Below, piece by piece: positions 8,891 through 18,805 of a stretch of DNA of 64,000 nucleotides (positions are counted from its first letter, which is position 1; each line of letters begins with the position of its first letter). The position numbers and the translations under genes were made by a program. Origin of the DNA: Spirosoma linguale DSM 74. GTDB lineage: Bacteria; Bacteroidota; Bacteroidia; Cytophagales; Spirosomataceae. Below the pieces are notes generated by a model. The model was given only the letters and a program-made list of their open reading frames with translations. It made no database searches and was not told the origin of the DNA. The stretch lies in NCBI GenBank assembly GCA_000024525.1, contig CP001769.1, positions 3,128,501 through 3,192,500 of the forward strand. The letters are read 5' to 3'.

Positions 8891-9556
8891 ATGAAAGGAA
8901 GCGAATTGGACTTATTCCTCAGTATAGGCTATTTTCGAATGCAACAGGAAGTGTTCACGTGTCAGTACATCGTCTTCAATGATACCCTTTGTCCGGTACA
9001 TTGGCTCAGACTTTCACTGGCGAACGTTACATTAGGTCCAAAGCAATCCCGACTGCTTCGCATAAATGAGCCGTTTTCGGTAACCGTCAAGCCTTTTGTT
9101 CTAACGCAGGAAGTTGAAGCCCTTTATGCGCTCTACAAGCGATCTGTCGATTTTGACGCCCCCATCTCGGTTGAATTCTGGCTACTGAATGGGGCGCTGA
9201 AATCGGGATTCGATACCTATACCATCGAAGTGCGGGATGGCAGTCGGCTTATTGCCGTAGGTATATTCGATAACGGGGAGACAAGCATTGCGGGCATTAT
9301 GAATTTTTACCACCCGGATTATCGTAAGCAGAGCCTGGGTAAATACCTCATGCTGCTCAAGATAAACCACGCCCGGAGTCAGCAAAAACGTTACTATTAC
9401 CCCGGTTATCTGGTTAGCTACTACCCAAAATTTGATTACAAGCTATTCCCCTGCGAAGCTGCCACCGAGGTATTTGACGAGAATACGGGCCGATGGGTCC
9501 CCTTCTCGTGGGAGACAGTAGATGCTATGGCGACTTTTAAACTGGAACAACAATAG
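8891..9556 (+). CDS. Arginyl/leucyl-tRNA--protein transferase-like protein (ATE/Bpt family, GNAT fold)
   Basis: 221 residues. The N-terminal part GYFRMQQEVFTCQYIVFNDT with Cys residues and LCPVHWLRL resembles the cysteine-containing lead of aminoacyl-tRNA-protein transferases. The C-terminal half, with IAVGIFDNGETSIAGIMNFY, HPDYRKQSLGKYLMLLKI and YYYPGYLVSYYPKFDYKLFP, is the typical acyltransferase-fold end of ATE1 and Bpt. Such enzymes add Arg or Leu to the N-terminus of proteins and mark them for the N-degron proteolysis route. At 221 residues it is close to bacterial Bpt in size. The amino acid transferred cannot be decided. It stands alone, with 260 non-coding bases before the next gene. 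Confidence 0.78.
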   Translation: MKGSELDLFLSIGYFRMQQEVFTCQYIVFNDTLCPVHWLRLSLANVTLGPKQSRLLRINEPFSVTVKPFVLTQEVEALYALYKRSVDFDAPISVEFWLLNGALKSGFDTYTIEVRDGSRLIAVGIFDNGETSIAGIMNFYHPDYRKQSLGKYLMLLKINHARSQQKRYYYPGYLVSYYPKFDYKLFPCEAATEVFDENTGRWVPFSWETVDAMATFKLEQQ

Positions 9557-9818: not shown

Positions 9819-10778
9819 ATGAAAATAAGAAAAGCAGTAATTACAGCAGCCGCTCGCGGGGAACGATTATATCCGGTAGCCGATACCATTCAAAAAGCCA
9901 TGCTCCCCGTTATTGATACGGATGGCTTACACAAACCAGTCATTCAGGCGATTGCCGAGGAGGCTTTTCTAAGCGGTATTGAAGAAATATGCGTCGTTTG
10001 CGCCCCCGGTGATGGAGAACGTTATATCAATGCCTTCACATCTTTACGAGATAATCTGGTAAAGTCGTACAAAGGAGTCGACTGGGCGCGGGAAGAAGCC
10101 GAAAAAATTGACAACCTCATCAGCCGAATTCAGTTCACCGAGCAGCAGGAGCCACTTGGTTATGGACATGCCGTTTACTGCGCCAGAGAATTTGTCAACG
10201 AAGAACCTTTTCTGCTCCTGCTGGGCGATTATCTGTACGTCTCTAATCTGACCAGCAAGCGGTGTGCCGCACAGCTGATTGAACTGGCGATGCAGGAAGA
10301 CTGCTCCGTATCGGCAGTTAACCCAACCATTGAGCATCAGATCGGTCGTTATGGCACCCTGACCGGCAAGCACGTTGCCAACATGAGCGGGGTGTACCAG
10401 ATTGAAAAACTCATCGAAAAACCGTCGCTGAGCGTTGCCGAACTTGAGCTACAGACGCCCGGTTTACGTGTGGGCTACTACCTCTGTTTCTTCGGCATGC
10501 ACGTGCTAACCCCGACGGTTTTTTCCCTGCTTGAGAAGCAGATAGAAGAAGGAAGCAAGAACGTTCTGTTAACTCCCGCCCTCCAGGCACTGGCCGATAC
10601 AGAAAAATACCTGGCGCTGGAAGTTAAAGGAAACCGGTACGACTTAAGCGGACGCCAGGGCCTGCTTCGGGCACAAATGGCGCTGGGACTGGCGGGAGTG
10701 GCCCATGACGAAACCCTGACCTCTATGGTAGAACTGCTGGCCGAAGCCAATACCAGAAAGGCACAATTGGCTCAATAA
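9819..10778 (+). CDS. GalU-like sugar nucleotidyltransferase
   Basis: 319 residues of the NTP_transferase superfamily, most like GalU (UTP--glucose-1-phosphate uridylyltransferase). Visible are the N-terminal strand KAVITAAARGERLYPVAD, KAMLPVID in place of the usual KEMLPI, PLGYGHAVYCAREFV, FLLLLGDYLY, IGRYGTL and IEKPSL. In GalU the nucleotide loop is GxGTR; here the matching stretch is AARGERLYP, so the first glycine is an alanine and the loop differs. It probably makes a UDP- or other NDP-sugar from the sugar 1-phosphate. The next gene begins about 50 bases on and encodes a sugar kinase/pyrophosphorylase fusion, so the pair is probably one operon with linked substrates. Confidence 0.82.
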   Translation: MKIRKAVITAAARGERLYPVADTIQKAMLPVIDTDGLHKPVIQAIAEEAFLSGIEEICVVCAPGDGERYINAFTSLRDNLVKSYKGVDWAREEAEKIDNLISRIQFTEQQEPLGYGHAVYCAREFVNEEPFLLLLGDYLYVSNLTSKRCAAQLIELAMQEDCSVSAVNPTIEHQIGRYGTLTGKHVANMSGVYQIEKLIEKPSLSVAELELQTPGLRVGYYLCFFGMHVLTPTVFSLLEKQIEEGSKNVLLTPALQALADTEKYLALEVKGNRYDLSGRQGLLRAQMALGLAGVAHDETLTSMVELLAEANTRKAQLAQ

Positions 10779-10830
10779 GGCCTTTTTGGTTATATCCAAC
10801 CGTCCAACTAGTTTCCTAGCATCACTCAAC

Positions 10831-13800
10831 ATGAATGTTTTTATAGAAACAATTACGTCTGCCAATACCACTGCCCGCAACCGATCCTTTTTTGAATTAA
10901 GCCGAAATCTGTCGGCCAGAGATTTATTAAAAGACCTGCGTGAGCTGGATGAGTTCAGAAAATCCACGCCGAACCTGTACGATAAAGTCAGAGCCATTCT
11001 CTTTCTATATGCCGGTTTCCGGTTTTTTCTGATGGAAGACCGGGCAACGCCGGCAATCGGCAAAATTCCCTACGCCGGTTTCGAAGATTTACTGTCCCGT
11101 CGGTTTGAGCAGGCAATCGCTACTTTTTTGCAGGATCTGGATAAACACGGTCCTAATGCCACATTGTTTAGTGCATTAGCCGATAGTTATCATCAGTTAT
11201 CATTCCAGATTCTGGCCGATCAGGTTCGTAAGAGCGTCCGTTCCAGCAAAGGTAATCAGTGGATGTTCCGGGTTGGCCATCAGGCCGAACACCCGATCCG
11301 TATTCACCCCAACCTGCTGCAACGCCCGGACAACTCCCTTTTCTACCCTATCCTGCACGAACAAACATCGGTTCGGATGGACCTGACCCACAGTGGCTGG
11401 TCCGATATTTTCTTTCTGGGAATGGACTACCCCGAAGGCGCCCGGGTTATCAATATCTCGATTGACCTGGGGGTCTTTGGCCGCGACAAAGATATCAGGC
11501 CCCCGCTGCACTGTTATGTACGGGTGATCTCGGAGCCAGTCTTACGCCTGACCAGCGTTGACCTGAACACCACCAAAGATATTCACGACCTCGCCGATCT
11601 GTTTAATTTCGGCAACGATTACCTGAGTCTGGTAAAAGCCGGGGTCATTGCCTCCGGCTTGATTCCTCCTTCTTTTGAAGGAACAAACCAGTCACTGGCA
11701 GAGATCCTGACCCGTATTGTGGCTCCCGGCATGGGTATTGAACTGGTCACGAAAGTAAACGACATTCCAAAGGGTTCGCGCTTTGCGGTTTCCACAAACC
11801 TGCTAGGGTCCATTATCAGTCTGCTGATGCGGGCAACCGGACAAACGCAAAATCTGGAAGGCGGCTTGCTGGAAAGCGAACGGCGGCTGGTAGCATCGAG
11901 GGCTATTCTGGGCGAGTGGATTGGTGGCTCCGGCGGTGGCTGGCAGGATTCCGGGGGCGTTTGGCCGGGCATCAAAGCCATTCAGGGTACGTTTGCGCAG
12001 GAGGGCGACCCCGAGTCGGGCATCAGTCGGGGTACACTCCTCCCCCGCCACCGCGTACTGGAAGGCAGCGAAGTACATCCCGAGATTCAGGAAAAAATCA
12101 TGAACTCGCTGGTGCTTATGCACGGGGGTATGGCCTCTAACGTGGGGCCGATTCTGGAAATGGTCACCGAAAAGTACCTGCTTCGGGGCGATAAAGAGTG
12201 GGCGGCCCGTCAGCAAACAAACCAGATTTTCGACAATATTCTGGGCGCGATCAAGGAAGGAGACATTCGAAAACTGGGCGAAAATACCGCTCGGAACTGG
12301 GAATTTCCCATCAAAACGATTATTCCCTGGGCGTCAACGTATTTTACCGAGCAGATCATTGCCAAAGCAAAAAAACAGATTGGCGACGATTACTATGGTT
12401 TCCTGATGCTCGGAGGCATGTCTGGCGGAGGTATGGGTATGTTTGTTAATCCGGACCGCTACGAGGAGTATAAGCTGCAAGTGCTGGAGATGCTTCGTAA
12501 AACAAAAAACGAGCTGTCCGATTCCCTGCCCTTTGCTATGGAACCTGTGGTGTACAACTGGAGCATTAACCCGAGAGGCACCTGGGCTACCCTGCAGGAA
12601 GGCAATCAGGCGCTCATGCCGGAACAGTATTATGGCATTCAGGTATCGGAACTGGTGCGTAAAGACCCTAGCTCTATCCCGTATGTACGTCGGGCGGAGA
12701 TCGACTTTTTTACGACCTATTGCGATCAGAACAATCTGGCTTACCCGCTGCTGCGCACCATTGTCAGTAACCTCTTTAAAGTATCTGACCCGACCTCTCA
12801 GGGTAACCGGGGTGCCGAAAACGATAAAGCTGACCGTATTAAAAAAGAGAACGGCTTCGACTATATCCAACACGGAGAAATTCGGGAAGAGCTTCAGAAA
12901 GGCCGCATCGGGCTGGCCCGAAACCGGCTGTCGGCAGAAACAACGATTGAGGATGTGCTGCCGGAAGATCTGGTTCAATTCGACGCGCTGGCCGCGTCAA
13001 CCCAAGCTGGTGAGCAGGCGATCCGGTCGGGCCGGGTAGCTATTATGAGCCTGGCTGCCGGGGTTGGCAGCCGCTGGACCAAAGGAGCCGGGGTAATCAA
13101 GGCGATCAATCCATTCGTTGACATAGATGGGGAACACCGGAGCTTCCTGGAAATTCACATGGCCAAGACCCGAAAGGTAGCCGAGCAGTATAACGCGACT
13201 ATTCCGCACCTTGTCGCAACCAGCTATCTGACCCACGAGCCTATCCGGAAAAAACTGGAGCAAACGGGCAACTTCGGTTACGGCGGGCCTGCTTTTCTAT
13301 CGCCGGGTCGTTCTATTGGGCAGCGTTTTGTACCGATGGAACGCGATTTGCGGTTTATGTGGGAAGAAATGCCCCAGGAAACGCTGGACGAAAACAAACA
13401 AAAAGTGCGGGATGCCGTACGTCAGTCGATGATTGCCTGGGCGAAGGCAAAAGGCGAAGGAACCGATTACGTAGACAATATTGCAGCTCAACGGTTTTCT
13501 CCGCTGGGCCACTGGTACGAGGTGTCTAACCTGTTGCGAAATGGCACGCTGGCCAAACTCCTTGCCAGTAATCCACAGGTGGAAACCATCATGCTGCACA
13601 ATATCGATACCCTCGGCGCCAACCTCGACCCGGCCGTTCTTGGGTATCACCTTGAATCTGGCAATGCACTAACGTTTGAGGTTGTTCCCCGTCGGATTGA
13701 GGACAGAGGGGGCGGACTTGCGCGGGTAAATGGCCATGTCCGTCTGTTGGAGGGTTTGGCGCAGCCTCGCGAAGACGACGAACTGAATCTGAGCTATTAC

Positions 13801-14190
13801 AACACCATGACCACCTGGATTCAGATTGATCCGCTGCTCCAGTTGTTTGGCCTAAGCCGCGCTGATCTGCAAAACGGCGACGAAGCTCAACTGGCTAAAG
13901 CGGTGCGCAGCGTAGCCCACCGGATTCCTACCTATGTAACCATTAAGGATGTAAAATACCGCTGGGGACATGGACAGGAAGATATTTACCCCGTTGCGCA
14001 GATCGAGAAATTATGGAGCGATATGTCGGCGCTGGCCGATGTTAAATGCGGCTATATTGCGGTCCCCAGATACCGTGGGCAGCAGATGAAAGATCCGGCT
14101 CAACTGGATTCGTGGGTTACAGACGGTAGTAAAGACTATGTAGCCTCGCTTTGCACATTTTCTACTATCCAATCCGAACCGCAACATTAA
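10831..14190 (+). CDS. Fucokinase-like GHMP kinase fused to a UDPGP-family pyrophosphorylase
   Basis: 1,119 residues from ATG 10831; a TTG at 10786 in the same frame would add 15 residues. Residues 1-170 are a helical lead of unknown role. A GHMP sugar kinase follows: VRMDLTHSGWSDIFF at about 181 (like the substrate loop of Fkp-type fucokinases), IPKGSRFAVST at about 312 (phosphate-binding loop), GGGWQD at 368-373, and GGMSGGGMGMF at 528. After a linker, residues 739 onwards show MSLAAGVGSRW and later NIDTLGANLDP at about 923, the loop and metal site of eukaryote-type UDPGP pyrophosphorylases. The likely job is salvage: phosphorylate a free sugar at C1, then couple it to a nucleotide. In Fkp/FKGP the order is reversed (pyrophosphorylase first). 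The sugar is unknown; a fucose-like or galactose-like sugar is possible. Ends at a long stem-loop terminator. Confidence 0.75.
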   Translation: MNVFIETITSANTTARNRSFFELSRNLSARDLLKDLRELDEFRKSTPNLYDKVRAILFLYAGFRFFLMEDRATPAIGKIPYAGFEDLLSRRFEQAIATFLQDLDKHGPNATLFSALADSYHQLSFQILADQVRKSVRSSKGNQWMFRVGHQAEHPIRIHPNLLQRPDNSLFYPILHEQTSVRMDLTHSGWSDIFFLGMDYPEGARVINISIDLGVFGRDKDIRPPLHCYVRVISEPVLRLTSVDLNTTKDIHDLADLFNFGNDYLSLVKAGVIASGLIPPSFEGTNQSLAEILTRIVAPGMGIELVTKVNDIPKGSRFAVSTNLLGSIISLLMRATGQTQNLEGGLLESERRLVASRAILGEWIGGSGGGWQDSGGVWPGIKAIQGTFAQEGDPESGISRGTLLPRHRVLEGSEVHPEIQEKIMNSLVLMHGGMASNVGPILEMVTEKYLLRGDKEWAARQQTNQIFDNILGAIKEGDIRKLGENTARNWEFPIKTIIPWASTYFTEQIIAKAKKQIGDDYYGFLMLGGMSGGGMGMFVNPDRYEEYKLQVLEMLRKTKNELSDSLPFAMEPVVYNWSINPRGTWATLQEGNQALMPEQYYGIQVSELVRKDPSSIPYVRRAEIDFFTTYCDQNNLAYPLLRTIVSNLFKVSDPTSQGNRGAENDKADRIKKENGFDYIQHGEIREELQKGRIGLARNRLSAETTIEDVLPEDLVQFDALAASTQAGEQAIRSGRVAIMSLAAGVGSRWTKGAGVIKAINPFVDIDGEHRSFLEIHMAKTRKVAEQYNATIPHLVATSYLTHEPIRKKLEQTGNFGYGGPAFLSPGRSIGQRFVPMERDLRFMWEEMPQETLDENKQKVRDAVRQSMIAWAKAKGEGTDYVDNIAAQRFSPLGHWYEVSNLLRNGTLAKLLASNPQVETIMLHNIDTLGANLDPAVLGYHLESGNALTFEVVPRRIEDRGGGLARVNGHVRLLEGLAQPREDDELNLSYYNTMTTWIQIDPLLQLFGLSRADLQNGDEAQLAKAVRSVAHRIPTYVTIKDVKYRWGHGQEDIYPVAQIEKLWSDMSALADVKCGYIAVPRYRGQQMKDPAQLDSWVTDGSKDYVASLCTFSTIQSEPQH

Positions 14191-14328: not shown

Positions 14329-15165
14329 GAGCCTGTTTAAAAATGGGGTGAGGCCCTAAAAGAATAGAATCAGCCTATCTTGTGGGTTAATCCGACCAAA
14401 GATGTACCCCACAGACCTGACTGATTCCGCTTGGCAAGTTATCCAAGAAATCTTGGCTGACAAGCGTAAACGAAAGTATTCACTTCGTGCGATTCTCAAT
14501 GCATTACTGTATTTGACCAAAACCGGTTGCCAGTGGCGACAGATGCCCAATGATTTGCCGCCTTGGCCTTTGTGCTACTACTACTTCTGGAAGTGGCGTA
14601 ACGAGGGGACTTGGGAACGACTCAACAAGTCGTTGGTCGAACGTAGACGACAAAAAGCGAAACGGGAAGCTTCACCCAGCGTGGGCGTCATTGATTCACA
14701 GAGCATTAAGTGTAGTGAGTGGGGTGTAGTGCCCAAAGGCTATGATGGCCATAAGAAGGTTAACGGACGTAAGCGGCACATCATCGTGGATACATTAGGC
14801 TTGGTTTTAGTAGTCGTAGTTCATGCGGCTAATCAACATGACAGTCCAGCCGCCAGAGCGGTACTAACTCGGTTAGCTGGTCAAGGTTACGAGCGAATGA
14901 ACAAGATTTTAGCCGATAGTGCGTATGGCAAGAAGTTAGCCCGTTGGCTTAAAAGGTCTTATGGGCTACTCTTGGAAGTGGTAAAGGTGAGCGAGTTAGC
15001 CGGTTTTCAAGTCTTGCCCATGCGCTGGAAAGTCGAGCGAACGTTTGCCTGGATGAATTGGTCGAGACGGCTTAGTAAAGACTATGAATGTGGAGTCAAT
15101 TCGCACGAATCGTTCGTGTATTTGTCCAACATCAACCGGATGCTCAAGCATTTTTAAACAGGCTC
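14329..15165 (+). mobile_element. IS5-family insertion sequence, complete (837 bp)
   Basis: The ends are perfect 17-bp inverted repeats, GAGCCTGTTTAAAAATG at 14329-14345 and its complement at 15149-15165. TTA flanks the element on both sides (14326-14328 and 15166-15168), consistent with the short TA/TNA-type target duplication of the IS427 group of IS5. It encodes one intact transposase whose stop codon lies inside the right repeat. It sits in non-coding DNA after a terminator and does not appear to break a gene. Confidence 0.92.
14402..15157 (+). CDS. IS5-family DDE transposase
   Basis: 251 residues, in one uninterrupted frame. The N-terminal DUF4096-type region (LTDSAWQVIQEIL, then GCQWRQMP and WPLCYYYFWKW) is followed by the RNase H-fold catalytic part: VIDSQSIK holds the first Asp, ILADSAYGK the second Asp, and RWKVERTFAWMNWSRRLSKD the Glu with its YREK-like surroundings. 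Length and layout match IS427-group transposases made from a single frame, without the frameshift used by some relatives. The intact frame and matching ends suggest a recent insertion and a possibly active element. Confidence 0.93.
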   Translation: MYPTDLTDSAWQVIQEILADKRKRKYSLRAILNALLYLTKTGCQWRQMPNDLPPWPLCYYYFWKWRNEGTWERLNKSLVERRRQKAKREASPSVGVIDSQSIKCSEWGVVPKGYDGHKKVNGRKRHIIVDTLGLVLVVVVHAANQHDSPAARAVLTRLAGQGYERMNKILADSAYGKKLARWLKRSYGLLLEVVKVSELAGFQVLPMRWKVERTFAWMNWSRRLSKDYECGVNSHESFVYLSNINRMLKHF

Positions 15166-15588: not shown

Positions 15589-15893
15589 AAGTAAAGCCAA
15601 ACGGAGTTGGGAAACCAATAAGTTGGCTTCCCCCCGTTCTACCCTTTCAACAGGCAGATAGTACAGACTAACTTTCTATACTCGCAAAAGTCCCTCCTTT
15701 TAATTCTCCCGAAGACTACTATTCTTCAAGAAAACTGCAGGAATAAGTTGTATCAACTGATATGGCTCTATACGCTATGGTCAGCAATCACCTATTGTGT
15801 ACGCTTACTAAATCGTATGTTTTGCCTTATATCAATACAACTAGTTTCAACGTTACTCAATGTAACGTCAACTACCTACCGGCAAACTTAAAC

Positions 15894-16370
15894 ATGAATC
15901 AAATTTCCTGTGCGTGCGTCTTTCACGTCGACGACGATGAAGACGATCGTTTTTTGTTGCAACAAGTATTTCGTCAGTATAGTCCAGCGTGTGAAATTAA
16001 ACCGCTGGCCAATGGCGAGGAACTACTGGAGGCTTTAGCAACTGCTCCTGTCCTACCCTCGCTAATTCTGTTAGATTTGAATATGCCCATTATGGGTGGG
16101 TTTGAAGTACTACGCTCTATCCGTCAGGAGCCCAGATACGACTCTATCCCGGTCGTTGTGCTAACAACGTCTGATCAATTGACAGATCGTCAGATGGCTT
16201 CAGAATTAAAAGCTGATGGATTTATTCCTAAACCACCTACGCTGAAGCAATTAAATCAGATTGTTCTTGAGTTAAGACAAAACTGGCTAGAGGGTAAATG
16301 TGCAGCTATTACGCAACCTCTTCATACGCCCCCAACCGACATACCTGCAAAGTCTATATCTGTCAAGTAA
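15894..16370 (+). CDS. Receiver-only response regulator (Rcp1-like)
   Basis: 158 residues from ATG 15894; the open frame continues upstream to 15762, but the extra 44 residues have no family match and lie in AT-rich DNA. The receiver core is complete: the acidic pocket HVDDDEDD at residues 11-18, the phospho-acceptor Asp61 in LILLDLNMP, the switch Thr in VVLTTSD, and the Lys in FIPKPPT. No output domain follows, only a short tail. Such single-domain regulators pass phosphate in a relay or bind a partner. No histidine kinase is near. It is convergent with a second receiver gene 14 bases away. Confidence 0.9.
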   Translation: MNQISCACVFHVDDDEDDRFLLQQVFRQYSPACEIKPLANGEELLEALATAPVLPSLILLDLNMPIMGGFEVLRSIRQEPRYDSIPVVVLTTSDQLTDRQMASELKADGFIPKPPTLKQLNQIVLELRQNWLEGKCAAITQPLHTPPTDIPAKSISVK

Positions 16371-16384
16371 CGTTGAGCGGAAGT

Positions 16385-16783
16385 TCAATCGAGTAGCCAG
16401 CTGAGGCATATTTTTTCTGAAACCAAGTCAAGCTCTACTAAATCGCATGGTTTGGTGATATAATCAGCGGCTCCTGCCTGCTTGCAGGCTTGTGGTTCAA
16501 TTGCCAGGCTGGAATACATGACTACGGGAATGTTCTGGCAGCATTCATGCGCTAAAAATAGTTTTAGCCAGTCCAGACCATCTTCGCCGGGCAAAATAAA
16601 CTCCAACAGGATAAGCTTATAGCTGTGTTCTTCATTTTGCCATAATTGAGAATTTATGAACTCATCACCCGATACAAACCGGTAAATTACCAAATTGGAT
16701 GTTTGTTTTTGCAGCCCCTGCTCCAGGAATAAACAGTCATCATCATCGTCGTCAATAACAATCACTTGTTTTACATTATCCAT
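16385..16783 (-). CDS. Receiver-only protein with Glu in place of the phospho-acceptor Asp
   Basis: 132 residues with a receiver fold: VIVIDDDDDDCLFLEQGL gives an acidic pocket (Asp11-16), YSS supplies the switch Ser, and YITKPCD the conserved Lys. At the phosphorylation site the sequence is LILLEFILPGEDG, so Glu61 (codon GAG) stands where Asp is expected. The protein cannot be phosphorylated at that site in the normal way and may mimic an always-active state or act by protein binding. There is no output domain. It is convergent with the intact receiver gene at 15894-16370 and upstream of a short hypothetical gene on the same strand. Confidence 0.87.
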   Translation of the reverse strand: MDNVKQVIVIDDDDDDCLFLEQGLQKQTSNLVIYRFVSGDEFINSQLWQNEEHSYKLILLEFILPGEDGLDWLKLFLAHECCQNIPVVMYSSLAIEPQACKQAGAADYITKPCDLVELDLVSEKICLSWLLD

Positions 16784-16834
16784 ATTTCATAACATTTCAG
16801 TATAAGCTGCGCCAATCTGGCTATACCCTAAAAT

Positions 16835-17080
16835 TCACCGGGCTGATGCTGTGATCAATAAATCGTGACCTTTTGTATTCAACTCCCAGTCGTTGAACGC
16901 TTCATTCCAGCTGAAGAGCAATTGACGTTCGCTGGCATTCCCATAGTCGTTGGTAACGGGAAATTTTATAGCGTAATGATGTTGCTGTCCATCATTAGTT
17001 TTTGGGAGTTGCTTAAAAGCATCTATTAATTCATCCAGACTTACTTCCAGATTTACTAGGGGATGGGTGTTCATTTTCAT
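16835..17080 (-). CDS. Hypothetical protein
   Basis: 81 residues (79 if the second Met is used), not recognised. It begins with a helical stretch (VSLDELIDAFKQLP) and ends with a strand-rich part containing LLFSWNEAFNDWEL. No signal peptide, membrane helix or metal-binding motif is seen. It lies just upstream of the Glu61 receiver gene on the same strand, 51 bases apart, so the two may be transcribed together, but no function can be named. Confidence 0.5.
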   Translation of the reverse strand: MKMNTHPLVNLEVSLDELIDAFKQLPKTNDGQQHHYAIKFPVTNDYGNASERQLLFSWNEAFNDWELNTKGHDLLITASAR

Positions 17081-17305
17081 GGCTATGTTGGTTTAAGCTG
17101 TATTCAATTAACGAATTGATGACACAGTGGTTCGATAATACCAGTTACTGAGTCAATACAAAACCGAAAAAAATGTTACTGCCTGCCATCGTCCTAACAT
17201 AGAATTAGTCAACGATATGAACCATTACCCCCTTCTTTTCTTAGCATAAAACAATTATCATCTATTTATTTTACAGCTATTTAAACCCGATAAACTGCCC
17301 AAAAA

Positions 17306-17359
17306 AAACACGGACTCACTATAACTTTCCCAGCGGGAAGCCATAGCGAATCCGTGTTT
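17306..17359 (-). terminator. Terminator after the LytTR gene
   Basis: Arms 17306-17317 (AAACACGGACTC) and 17348-17359 (GAATCCGTGTTT) pair with one mismatch, and an inner CTTTCCC/GGGAAG stem adds to it. Read on the minus strand it ends in a run of eight T, so it serves the LytTR gene. Confidence 0.78.
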
Positions 17360-17410
17360 ATCAGGTAGGTCAGACCAGATTACCTGAATTGAATAAGTCT
17401 GAATTGTCGA

Positions 17411-17836
17411 TTATTTATAAGGTCTGATAAGCTGGCTTGGGGCAAGCTGTATAGTCCAGGCTGGGCCCCGCTGAGGTAAACTGCGTCGGTCTTCCTGTTT
17501 TTGAAGTACCGCGAGTAATTCGGCACTACGACGCCGGGCAACCGGCAATGTCGTACCATCACTTAATTCGATTTCCATTTTTCTGGCATCCCACCGAATC
17601 ACCTTAACAATATCTGTGGGATTAATCAGACTGGATTTACTTACTCGAATAAAATCCGGCAACTGCTCAGCAAAGTAGATCAGACTTTTGCTCACCAGCA
17701 GCGGTTTGTCTAATTCTCTTAGATAAATCAAGGTATAGTTACCGCTCCCCTGTAATCTACGAATACTTTGGGCATCCTGAATATGCCGGTAGCCAGGAAT
17801 CTGGATAGGTAATGTTAAGTTAAGTTGAGTTCGCAT
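17411..17836 (-). CDS. LytTR-domain DNA-binding protein without receiver
   Basis: 141 residues. The LytTR fold covers about residues 12-110: IRRLQGSGNYTLIYL near the start, LLVSKSLIYFAEQLPDFIRVSKSSLINP in the middle (in which RVSKSSLIN is the family hallmark), and the ending ELSDGTTLPVARRRSAELL. LytTR proteins usually follow a receiver or a membrane domain; here the domain is alone, as is frequent in Cytophagales. The separate receiver proteins nearby (15894, 16385, 18356) could be its partners, which is inference. The 30 C-terminal residues are basic and probably disordered. The targets are unknown. It has its own terminator and a long upstream region. Confidence 0.88.
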   Translation of the reverse strand: MRTQLNLTLPIQIPGYRHIQDAQSIRRLQGSGNYTLIYLRELDKPLLVSKSLIYFAEQLPDFIRVSKSSLINPTDIVKVIRWDARKMEIELSDGTTLPVARRRSAELLAVLQKQEDRRSLPQRGPAWTIQLAPSQLIRPYK

Positions 17837-18355
17837 AGAAAAAAAAAGTCAAGGTAATCAGCGATAAAACTGATCTACTTTATTGATTATAGCAGGATAA
17901 CCGATAGGTCAAATCCCGATCTTGCCTTTACTTGCCCTGTAGGAAACCCTATAGGTAAGAACGCAGTAAGTGTGGGTAACCACGTTCTTAAGGATGCATT
18001 GTGTGGATAATAAACGGAAGCAGGGTAATTCGCAGCTCAAACAGGTACTTCAATTAGCTTATTTATGGCGACTTTTTCTGGCTGAATGACGTCCATAATT
18101 GAAGCTCTGGTATCACTAATTAACCGGTTTTTCATAACGAGAATGGTTTTTCTGACACGATCTTATGTTGTAAAAGCATGTTGATTTATACTAACTGGAA
18201 GCAGCTACTTTATGTTTAAAACGCTACTAATGAACGTATTAAACTATAAAATCTATAGACAATAAACCTATATACAAACAGATCAAGTTATCTCAGCTGG
18301 CAATGCCTTGACTACGAATCGAATCAGTGATCACTAGTTTATTCGTACGAGCAGA
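17837..18355. other. Long non-coding region upstream of the LytTR gene
   Basis: 519 AT-rich bases without a credible gene. It contains an inverted repeat TAAGAACG (17956-17963) / CGTTCTTA (17983-17990) with an inner GTGG/CCAC pair, and an 8-bp direct repeat GGTTTTTC at 18126-18133 and 18145-18152 (19 bases apart). LytTR proteins bind pairs of direct repeats, so these could be regulatory, but this is only a suggestion. Confidence 0.4.
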
Positions 18356-18805
18356 TTACATACTTGGAGGCAACGTAACTACTCCAGACCAGTAGGCGTT
18401 AAAAACACGGAAATAATGTTCCCACTCCTCTAAATAGACAGGTTTGATAAGGAATGAATGAACTCCGAATTCATAGGCCTGTTTGACGATATCTGCATCA
18501 GGATCACTACTGATAGCGACTATGGGTAAACAGGGATAGGTGTGCTTAATGTGTTTTACCAGCTCATAACCGACCTGTAGAGTAGGAAGATGTACGTCCA
18601 GAAGGACCAATCGGGGAAAAGGTTCTTTACTATTTCCTTTCGCCAAATACACGATGGCCTCATCTGCTGTTGCAGCAAATGAGGCCATCGCCTGGGGCAT
18701 ACTGGCTAACAGGCTGTACTGAATGAGCAGTTGATGATCTTTATTTGCTACAGCCACTAAAAGTGGAAAAGATGCTTTTTGATTCCGTCGCTGGTCATCG
18801 GGCAT
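18356..18805 (-). CDS. Receiver-only protein with altered acidic pocket
   Basis: 149 residues, one receiver domain. The phospho-acceptor site LVLLDVHLP (Asp70) and the Lys in FLIKPVY are kept, and the switch residue is Ser in VAISSDPD. At the N-terminus, where receivers have a pair of acids that bind Mg, this protein has LLVAVANKDHQLL, so the pair seems replaced by Val and Ala. Phosphorylation may be slow or absent. It has no output domain. The gene is flanked by 519 and 829 bases of non-coding DNA and belongs to the AT-rich regulator island. Confidence 0.8.
   Translation of the reverse strand: MPDDQRRNQKASFPLLVAVANKDHQLLIQYSLLASMPQAMASFAATADEAIVYLAKGNSKEPFPRLVLLDVHLPTLQVGYELVKHIKHTYPCLPIVAISSDPDADIVKQAYEFGVHSFLIKPVYLEEWEHYFRVFNAYWSGVVTLPPSM

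Follow-up and report, generated by a model that had tools for sequence, protein, structure and literature searches.

The window, a 64,000 nt stretch of the Spirosoma linguale DSM 74 genome, carries two adjoining genes on the forward strand. The first (9819..10778) codes for a 319 aa GalU-like NTP_transferase protein, in which residues 12-26 (9852..9896) hold the triphosphate-binding signature, A-R-G-E-R in the window copy, and the loop lysine, K26. The second (10831..14190) codes for a 1,119 aa fusion protein (AF2 model, pLDDT 88.7, pTM 0.89) that begins with a helical lead (residues 1-173, 10831..11349) and continues with an L-fucokinase-type GHMP kinase (residues 174-590, 11350..12600), a variable linker (residues 591-667, 12601..12831) and a UDPGP-family nucleotidyltransferase (residues 668-1110, 12832..14160). 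The kinase was assigned by profile and structure comparison, and the nucleotidyltransferase by a PF01704 match of 54.5 bits (curated cut-off, 22), while the linker has only one invariant column in 77 and a mean majority of 0.475. The phosphate loop of the kinase, IPKGSRFAVST (residues 312-322, 11764..11796), is altered compared to the PxGSGLGTSS of Fkp, and the nucleotide-binding loop of the UDPGP half (residues 741-757, LAAGVGSRWTKGAGVIK, 13051..13101) includes G744, R748, W749 and K757, all invariant (55/55). At E values up to 1, the only Pfam models matched by the fusion were PF01704 and, weakly, a GHMP C model; there was no PF07959 stretch. An initial annotation had described a two-gene unit in which a GHMP kinase precedes a pyrophosphorylase, and had contrasted it with Fkp, where the pyrophosphorylase comes first and is of another family; the unit, its domain order and the contrast are borne out, the Fkp domain being PF07959 and that of the fusion a C-terminal PF01704. 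The architecture is real, and is apparently that of an undescribed bifunctional sugar-1-kinase/pyrophosphorylase.

A single genome-contig scan gave 584 confirmed candidates, and the 80 loci listed among them form the main sample. The fusion is 54-99% identical across these 80, and their record titles include Bacteroidota, Hydrogenedentota, Verrucomicrobiota, Planctomycetota, Acidobacteriota and others, some being MAGs with doubtful taxonomic labels. Within Spirosoma, 15/36 genomes (S. linguale included) have a fusion match, which in one genome (G016) is in three pieces and in another (G006) has an internal TAA. PF01704 was found in 16/59 relatives, exactly the 16 fusion carriers, with the domain inside the fusion. 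Full-length fusions are present in 7/296 genomes of the same phylum, 26/288 of the phylum of a genome titled Akkermansia muciniphila, 11/294 of the phylum of Tautonia sociabilis (and six more matched in at least two pieces) and 4/297 of the phylum of an acidobacterial MAG, partial matches to Fkp and UGP proteins being left out of these counts. The titles of L024, L008 and L082 (Williamsia MAG, Flavobacterium sp. SUN052 and Thalassobius MAG) are odd for sequences with 60-88% identity to the Spirosoma protein, and may represent wrong labels or transferred genes.

In 77 of the 80 listed loci the fusion gene is immediately preceded by the GalU-like gene, in the same orientation (tblastn). Two of the other three (L025, L026) have no upstream DNA, and L076 has a response-regulator-like frame instead. 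In a second set of loci, which shares at least two genomes with the first, the partner is upstream in 48/54; it was absent within about 1.5 kb (E 1e-4) at L215 and L220-L223, and L217 starts at a contig end. The partner is therefore not always needed, since it is missing upstream both at L076 and at five loci of the planctomycete set that do have upstream DNA. The fusions of L220-L223, where no upstream partner was detected at E 1e-4, are divergent versions, and that of L223 is apparently split over two frames. The divergence of fusion and partner is correlated (r 0.85, 49 loci), as it would be for any co-inherited pair.

Neighbouring ORFs (at least 100 aa) were clustered at E 1e-8 and 60% coverage, in flanks reaching 10 kb if the contig was long enough, and no third conserved gene was found beside the pair, the widest neighbour cluster occurring in 8 of the 80 listed loci. 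Upstream of the unit, a protein encoded at 8891-9556 has matches to GNAT and arginyltransferase C-terminal models but falls short of the arginyltransferase cut-offs of NCBIfam, and is found at this position in the window and closest relatives only. Directly after the unit is an IS5 family transposase gene (14402-15157; over cut-off), and small response-regulator-like frames, recognized by eye, are found at 15762-18805. One plasmid, from Hymenobacter volaticus, carries the unit, flanked there by two-component genes; no such cluster exceeds 8 of the 80 listed loci. As there is no conserved cluster, and inspection by eye suggests no relation among the adjoining genes on the same strand, the neighbours were rejected as a clue to the sugar.

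Structure alignment with full-length FKP (9iit_A) pairs model residues 3-589 with FKP residues 490-949, and the helical lead is superposed on the helical linker of FKP. The lead had been left with no assigned role; it has this counterpart in structure but none by profile (it is outside the hhalign alignment to FKP and has no Pfam family over cut-off). According to the FKP study, R592, W599, D601, E751, Q761 and D762 contact the sugar or cause a loss of activity when mutated, with a more than 3000-fold drop in kcat/Km for fucose in W599A and D601A and no activity in E751A or D762A (PMC11982464). They correspond to R182, W190, D192, E362, Q372 and D373 of the fusion, each kept in 55/55, and by equivalence with FKP, D373 is the general base. 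The adenine-site residues D644, M645, I669 and L722 of FKP correspond to D244, L245, L267 and L324, also conserved in 55/55, and no other part of the fusion is as conserved as the kinase, with 107/417 invariant columns. The phosphate loop reads IPKGSR(L/F)AVST in the family versus IPxGSGLGTSS in four Fkp proteins, the changes being G to R, G to A and T to V (55/55), while T602 of FKP is replaced by Ile (I193, 55/55) and the Trp is preceded by a one-residue insertion. From these differences, the kinase could be changed in donor or substrate, or be inactive. A pyrophosphate-using kinase, an idea prompted by the altered loop, was set aside because the adenine-site equivalents are kept in 55/55.

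Because the FKP sugar-contact residues are retained in 55/55, a sugar with an L-fucose-like shape is predicted, and the comparison suggests one resembling L-fucose, D-arabinose or L-galactose. The initial annotation had left the sugar open; the choice is narrowed by the retained contacts. Galactose is less likely, since S. linguale encodes a galactokinase that passes the TIGR00131 cut-off. The same genome has a canonical GalU (L005:67-987, C1 near 5,041,300-5,043,000; 380 bits, over the TIGR01099 cut-off), directly adjoined by a GHMP kinase gene (L005:1021-2061). The product of the latter resembles plant glucuronokinase by motif; NCBIfam and Pfam assign it only to the GHMP superfamily, and it was therefore given no weight as evidence for glucuronic acid, a substrate considered because of the glucuronokinase reading.

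In a report on the UGP of A. nidulans, K135, H228 and K403 are basic residues, D258 is the metal Asp, and N256, E307 and N329 belong to the sugar site (PMC10470519). With these assignments, the equivalents of the first four in the fusion are K757, H894, K1087 and D926, each present in 55/55, and those of the sugar site are N924 and E974 (both 55/55) and N991 (52/55). The position of UGP N331 varies (M 34, N 10, L 9 and Q 2 of 55). Since the phosphate and metal residues are kept in 55/55, the UDPGP half looks catalytic. The uracil-binding Gln is placed at residue 823 or 827 by MAFFT, 827 by HMMER and 831 by hhalign, and a Gln is found at 827 in 4/55 and at 831 in 36/55. Loss of this Gln, based on a hand placement at 825, had been taken to hint at a different base, a point that was withdrawn given the disagreement between the three programs. 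The known PF01704 enzymes use UTP, which by family makes UTP a candidate nucleotide and a UDP-sugar a putative product. The search of the Tautonia phylum also retrieved two stand-alone UDPGP-family proteins (L225 and L226), the top scorers of seven relatives compared with the UDPGP half (75.5 and 93.6 bits) and a possible outgroup.

The partner scores 148.8 bits against TIGR01099 (GalU), below the cut-off of 326.8. Residues Q109, G114, D137, E200, K201, P202 and R273 are invariant among the 50 aligned partners, which also share a highly conserved additional loop (PGLRxGxYLCFFGMH) ahead of G226. At position 15, where canonical GalU has Thr, the partners have Q in 19, E in 16, A in 9, V in 3, G in 2, L in 1 and Thr in 0/50. 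The segment bearing the loop Lys26 is deleted in 18/50, D275 is replaced by N in 18 and by P in 1, and R16 occurs with K or R at position 26 in 31/50. The window copy, with ARGER in place of GxGTR, keeps R16, K26, D137, E200-K201 and D275. Among canonical GalU loci of relatives, 30/30 retain the GalU residue at all of these positions (frames picked by the AAGxGTR pattern, which 0/30 failed). In the second set, the Lys segment is missing from 41/47 readable partners, among them L107-L110 from the search of the S. linguale phylum. At the 18 Lys-deleted loci the fusion's own loop is intact, with R748 and K757 kept. Some active relatives such as MurU carry Glu at the position of Thr15, and GlmU has Asn at that of D275, so neither change alone need inactivate the protein. 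Judging from these alignments, selection maintains the nucleotide-sugar pocket of the partner even as the triphosphate loop disappears, a pattern that would mark a sensor.

A precedent is GMPPA, which is reported to be without catalytic activity, to bind GDP-mannose and to inhibit its paralogue GMPPB (PMC11228364). A GMPPA-like pattern, in which the pocket is kept and the catalytic loop lost, is clear in 18/50 partners and is not seen in the window copy. We read the partner as a putative product-sensing pseudo-pyrophosphorylase comparable to GMPPA, at least in the Lys-deleted lineages; the window's own partner may be active. The upstream gene had been put down as a GalU-like enzyme, and both its presence and its GalU-like fold are borne out, but with 18/50 copies Lys-deleted it cannot be taken as just another working enzyme.

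On balance we slightly favour the view that the fusion is a bifunctional sugar-activating enzyme accompanied by a GalU-derived, nucleotide-sugar-binding regulatory subunit. The kinase half would use ATP to phosphorylate C1 of a free L-fucose-like sugar (L-fucose, D-arabinose, L-galactose or a relative), and the UDPGP half would convert the sugar-1-phosphate and an NTP (UTP by family) to an NDP-sugar and pyrophosphate. The GalU-like neighbour, derived from a pyrophosphorylase, would sense the product or UDP-glucose and tune the fusion, a role like that of GMPPA over GMPPB; in lineages that keep the triphosphate loop, including that of the window, it may still be catalytic. The functions of fusion and partner are deduced throughout from folds, gene pairing, and kept or lost residues, taken from sequence or predicted structure. 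The catalysis by the two halves, their sugar and nucleotide, a complex with the partner and the way in which control would run are all inferred in this manner.

Alternatively, both nucleotidyltransferases may work, either making two nucleotide sugars or with the fusion loading an NDP-sugar while the GalU-like enzyme unloads UDP-glucose and pyrophosphate passes between them. The residues kept by the window partner, the presence of R16 with K/R at 26 in 31/50 copies and the strong pairing (77 of the 80 listed loci) are all consistent with this. It is nevertheless unlikely, given that the Lys26 segment is deleted in 18/50 partners, in which pairing and the remaining pocket are preserved, and is also missing in 41/47 of the readable second-set partners. 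The deletions in 18/50 make a control role at least as likely as a second working enzyme, and the canonical GalU of S. linguale means that UDP-glucose supply needs no second enzyme.

The unit could also be a rebuilt Fkp, in which a UDPGP half has taken the place of the fucose pyrophosphorylase and GDP-L-fucose is still made. The Fkp-like kinase pocket, the uracil-binding Gln that is not clearly kept and the finding of PF07959 over cut-off in 0/59 relatives would fit such a replacement. It becomes quite improbable when fusion-bearing genomes are considered, as 14/32 have PF07959 over cut-off, comprising 11/12 genomes chosen for a second kinase match and 3/20 others (six genomes behind selected loci gave 0/6), and given the UTP use of the known PF01704 enzymes. 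The coexistence of both systems speaks for a function of the unit distinct from that of Fkp. Finally, the changed phosphate loop might indicate that the kinase half is no longer a sugar kinase but a regulatory or scaffold domain, leaving the fusion in effect a nucleotidyltransferase, which is very unlikely for the most conserved part of the protein (107/417 columns), in which D373, E362, R182, the sugar contacts and the adenine-site residues are each kept in 55/55.

The preferred reading, an activating enzyme with a regulatory partner, can be taken further, to a new control unit in which a chain of kinase and eukaryotic-type pyrophosphorylase is governed by a GalU-derived pseudo-enzyme of another family that reads the nucleotide-sugar pool, the unit making an undescribed NDP-sugar of an L-fucose-like sugar (e.g. 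UDP-L-fucose or UDP-D-arabinose) for surface glycans. This bolder version is rather doubtful, and was given lower odds because the argument from the uracil-binding Gln was withdrawn. Few bifunctional sugar-salvage enzymes are known, and these combine fucokinase and GDP-fucose pyrophosphorylase. The fusion family would be a second way to build such an enzyme, spread over several phyla of complex-polysaccharide degraders, and it predicts an activated sugar missing from pathway annotation. The partners, from intact to deleted loop, would be a natural series of a catalytic enzyme turning into a control subunit, and if the fusion acts on free sugars it could be used in synthesis, as a single protein leading to nucleotide sugars.

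The initial annotation knew of no described system of this build, and no description of a fucokinase-UDPGP fusion was found in searches of open-access full texts, in which the term UDP-L-fucose turned up in one paper. The main text of a 2025 survey of FKP evolution is without words beginning UDP, UGP or Planctomycet, and its diversity section treats only fucokinase and GDP-fucose pyrophosphorylase domains. FKP of Bacteroides fragilis is alike in its kinase fold and active-site residues, in the helical subdomain beside the kinase, and in the joining of kinase to pyrophosphorylase; the fusion differs in having its pyrophosphorylase C-terminal to the kinase and of PF01704 rather than PF07959, in its altered phosphate loop, and in its separate GalU-like partner gene. 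Eukaryotic-type UDPGP enzymes (PF01704) share the fold and the phosphate, metal and most sugar-site residues of the UDPGP half, which is distinguished by its attachment to a kinase, a lengthened nucleotide loop, and roughly 45-60 extra residues around 839-885 (compared with the seven relatives aligned). Bacterial GalU resembles the partner in fold and nucleotide-sugar residues, but the partner has half the model score, no signature Thr, the Lys segment deleted in 18/50, and an extra loop. Human GMPPA/GMPPB is alike in the proposed role only, as a non-catalytic pyrophosphorylase relative that binds a nucleotide sugar and controls the catalyst (PMC11228364); GMPPA is a paralogue of its catalyst, whereas partner and fusion come from different families and their complex is putative. 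DrGKUP, a zebrafish glucuronokinase/putative pyrophosphorylase, likewise joins a sugar-1-kinase to a pyrophosphorylase-like domain, but its pyrophosphorylase domain is N-terminal, about 260 residues long and of bacterial type, and the protein is reported to have kinase activity with little pyrophosphorylase activity (PMC3938481).
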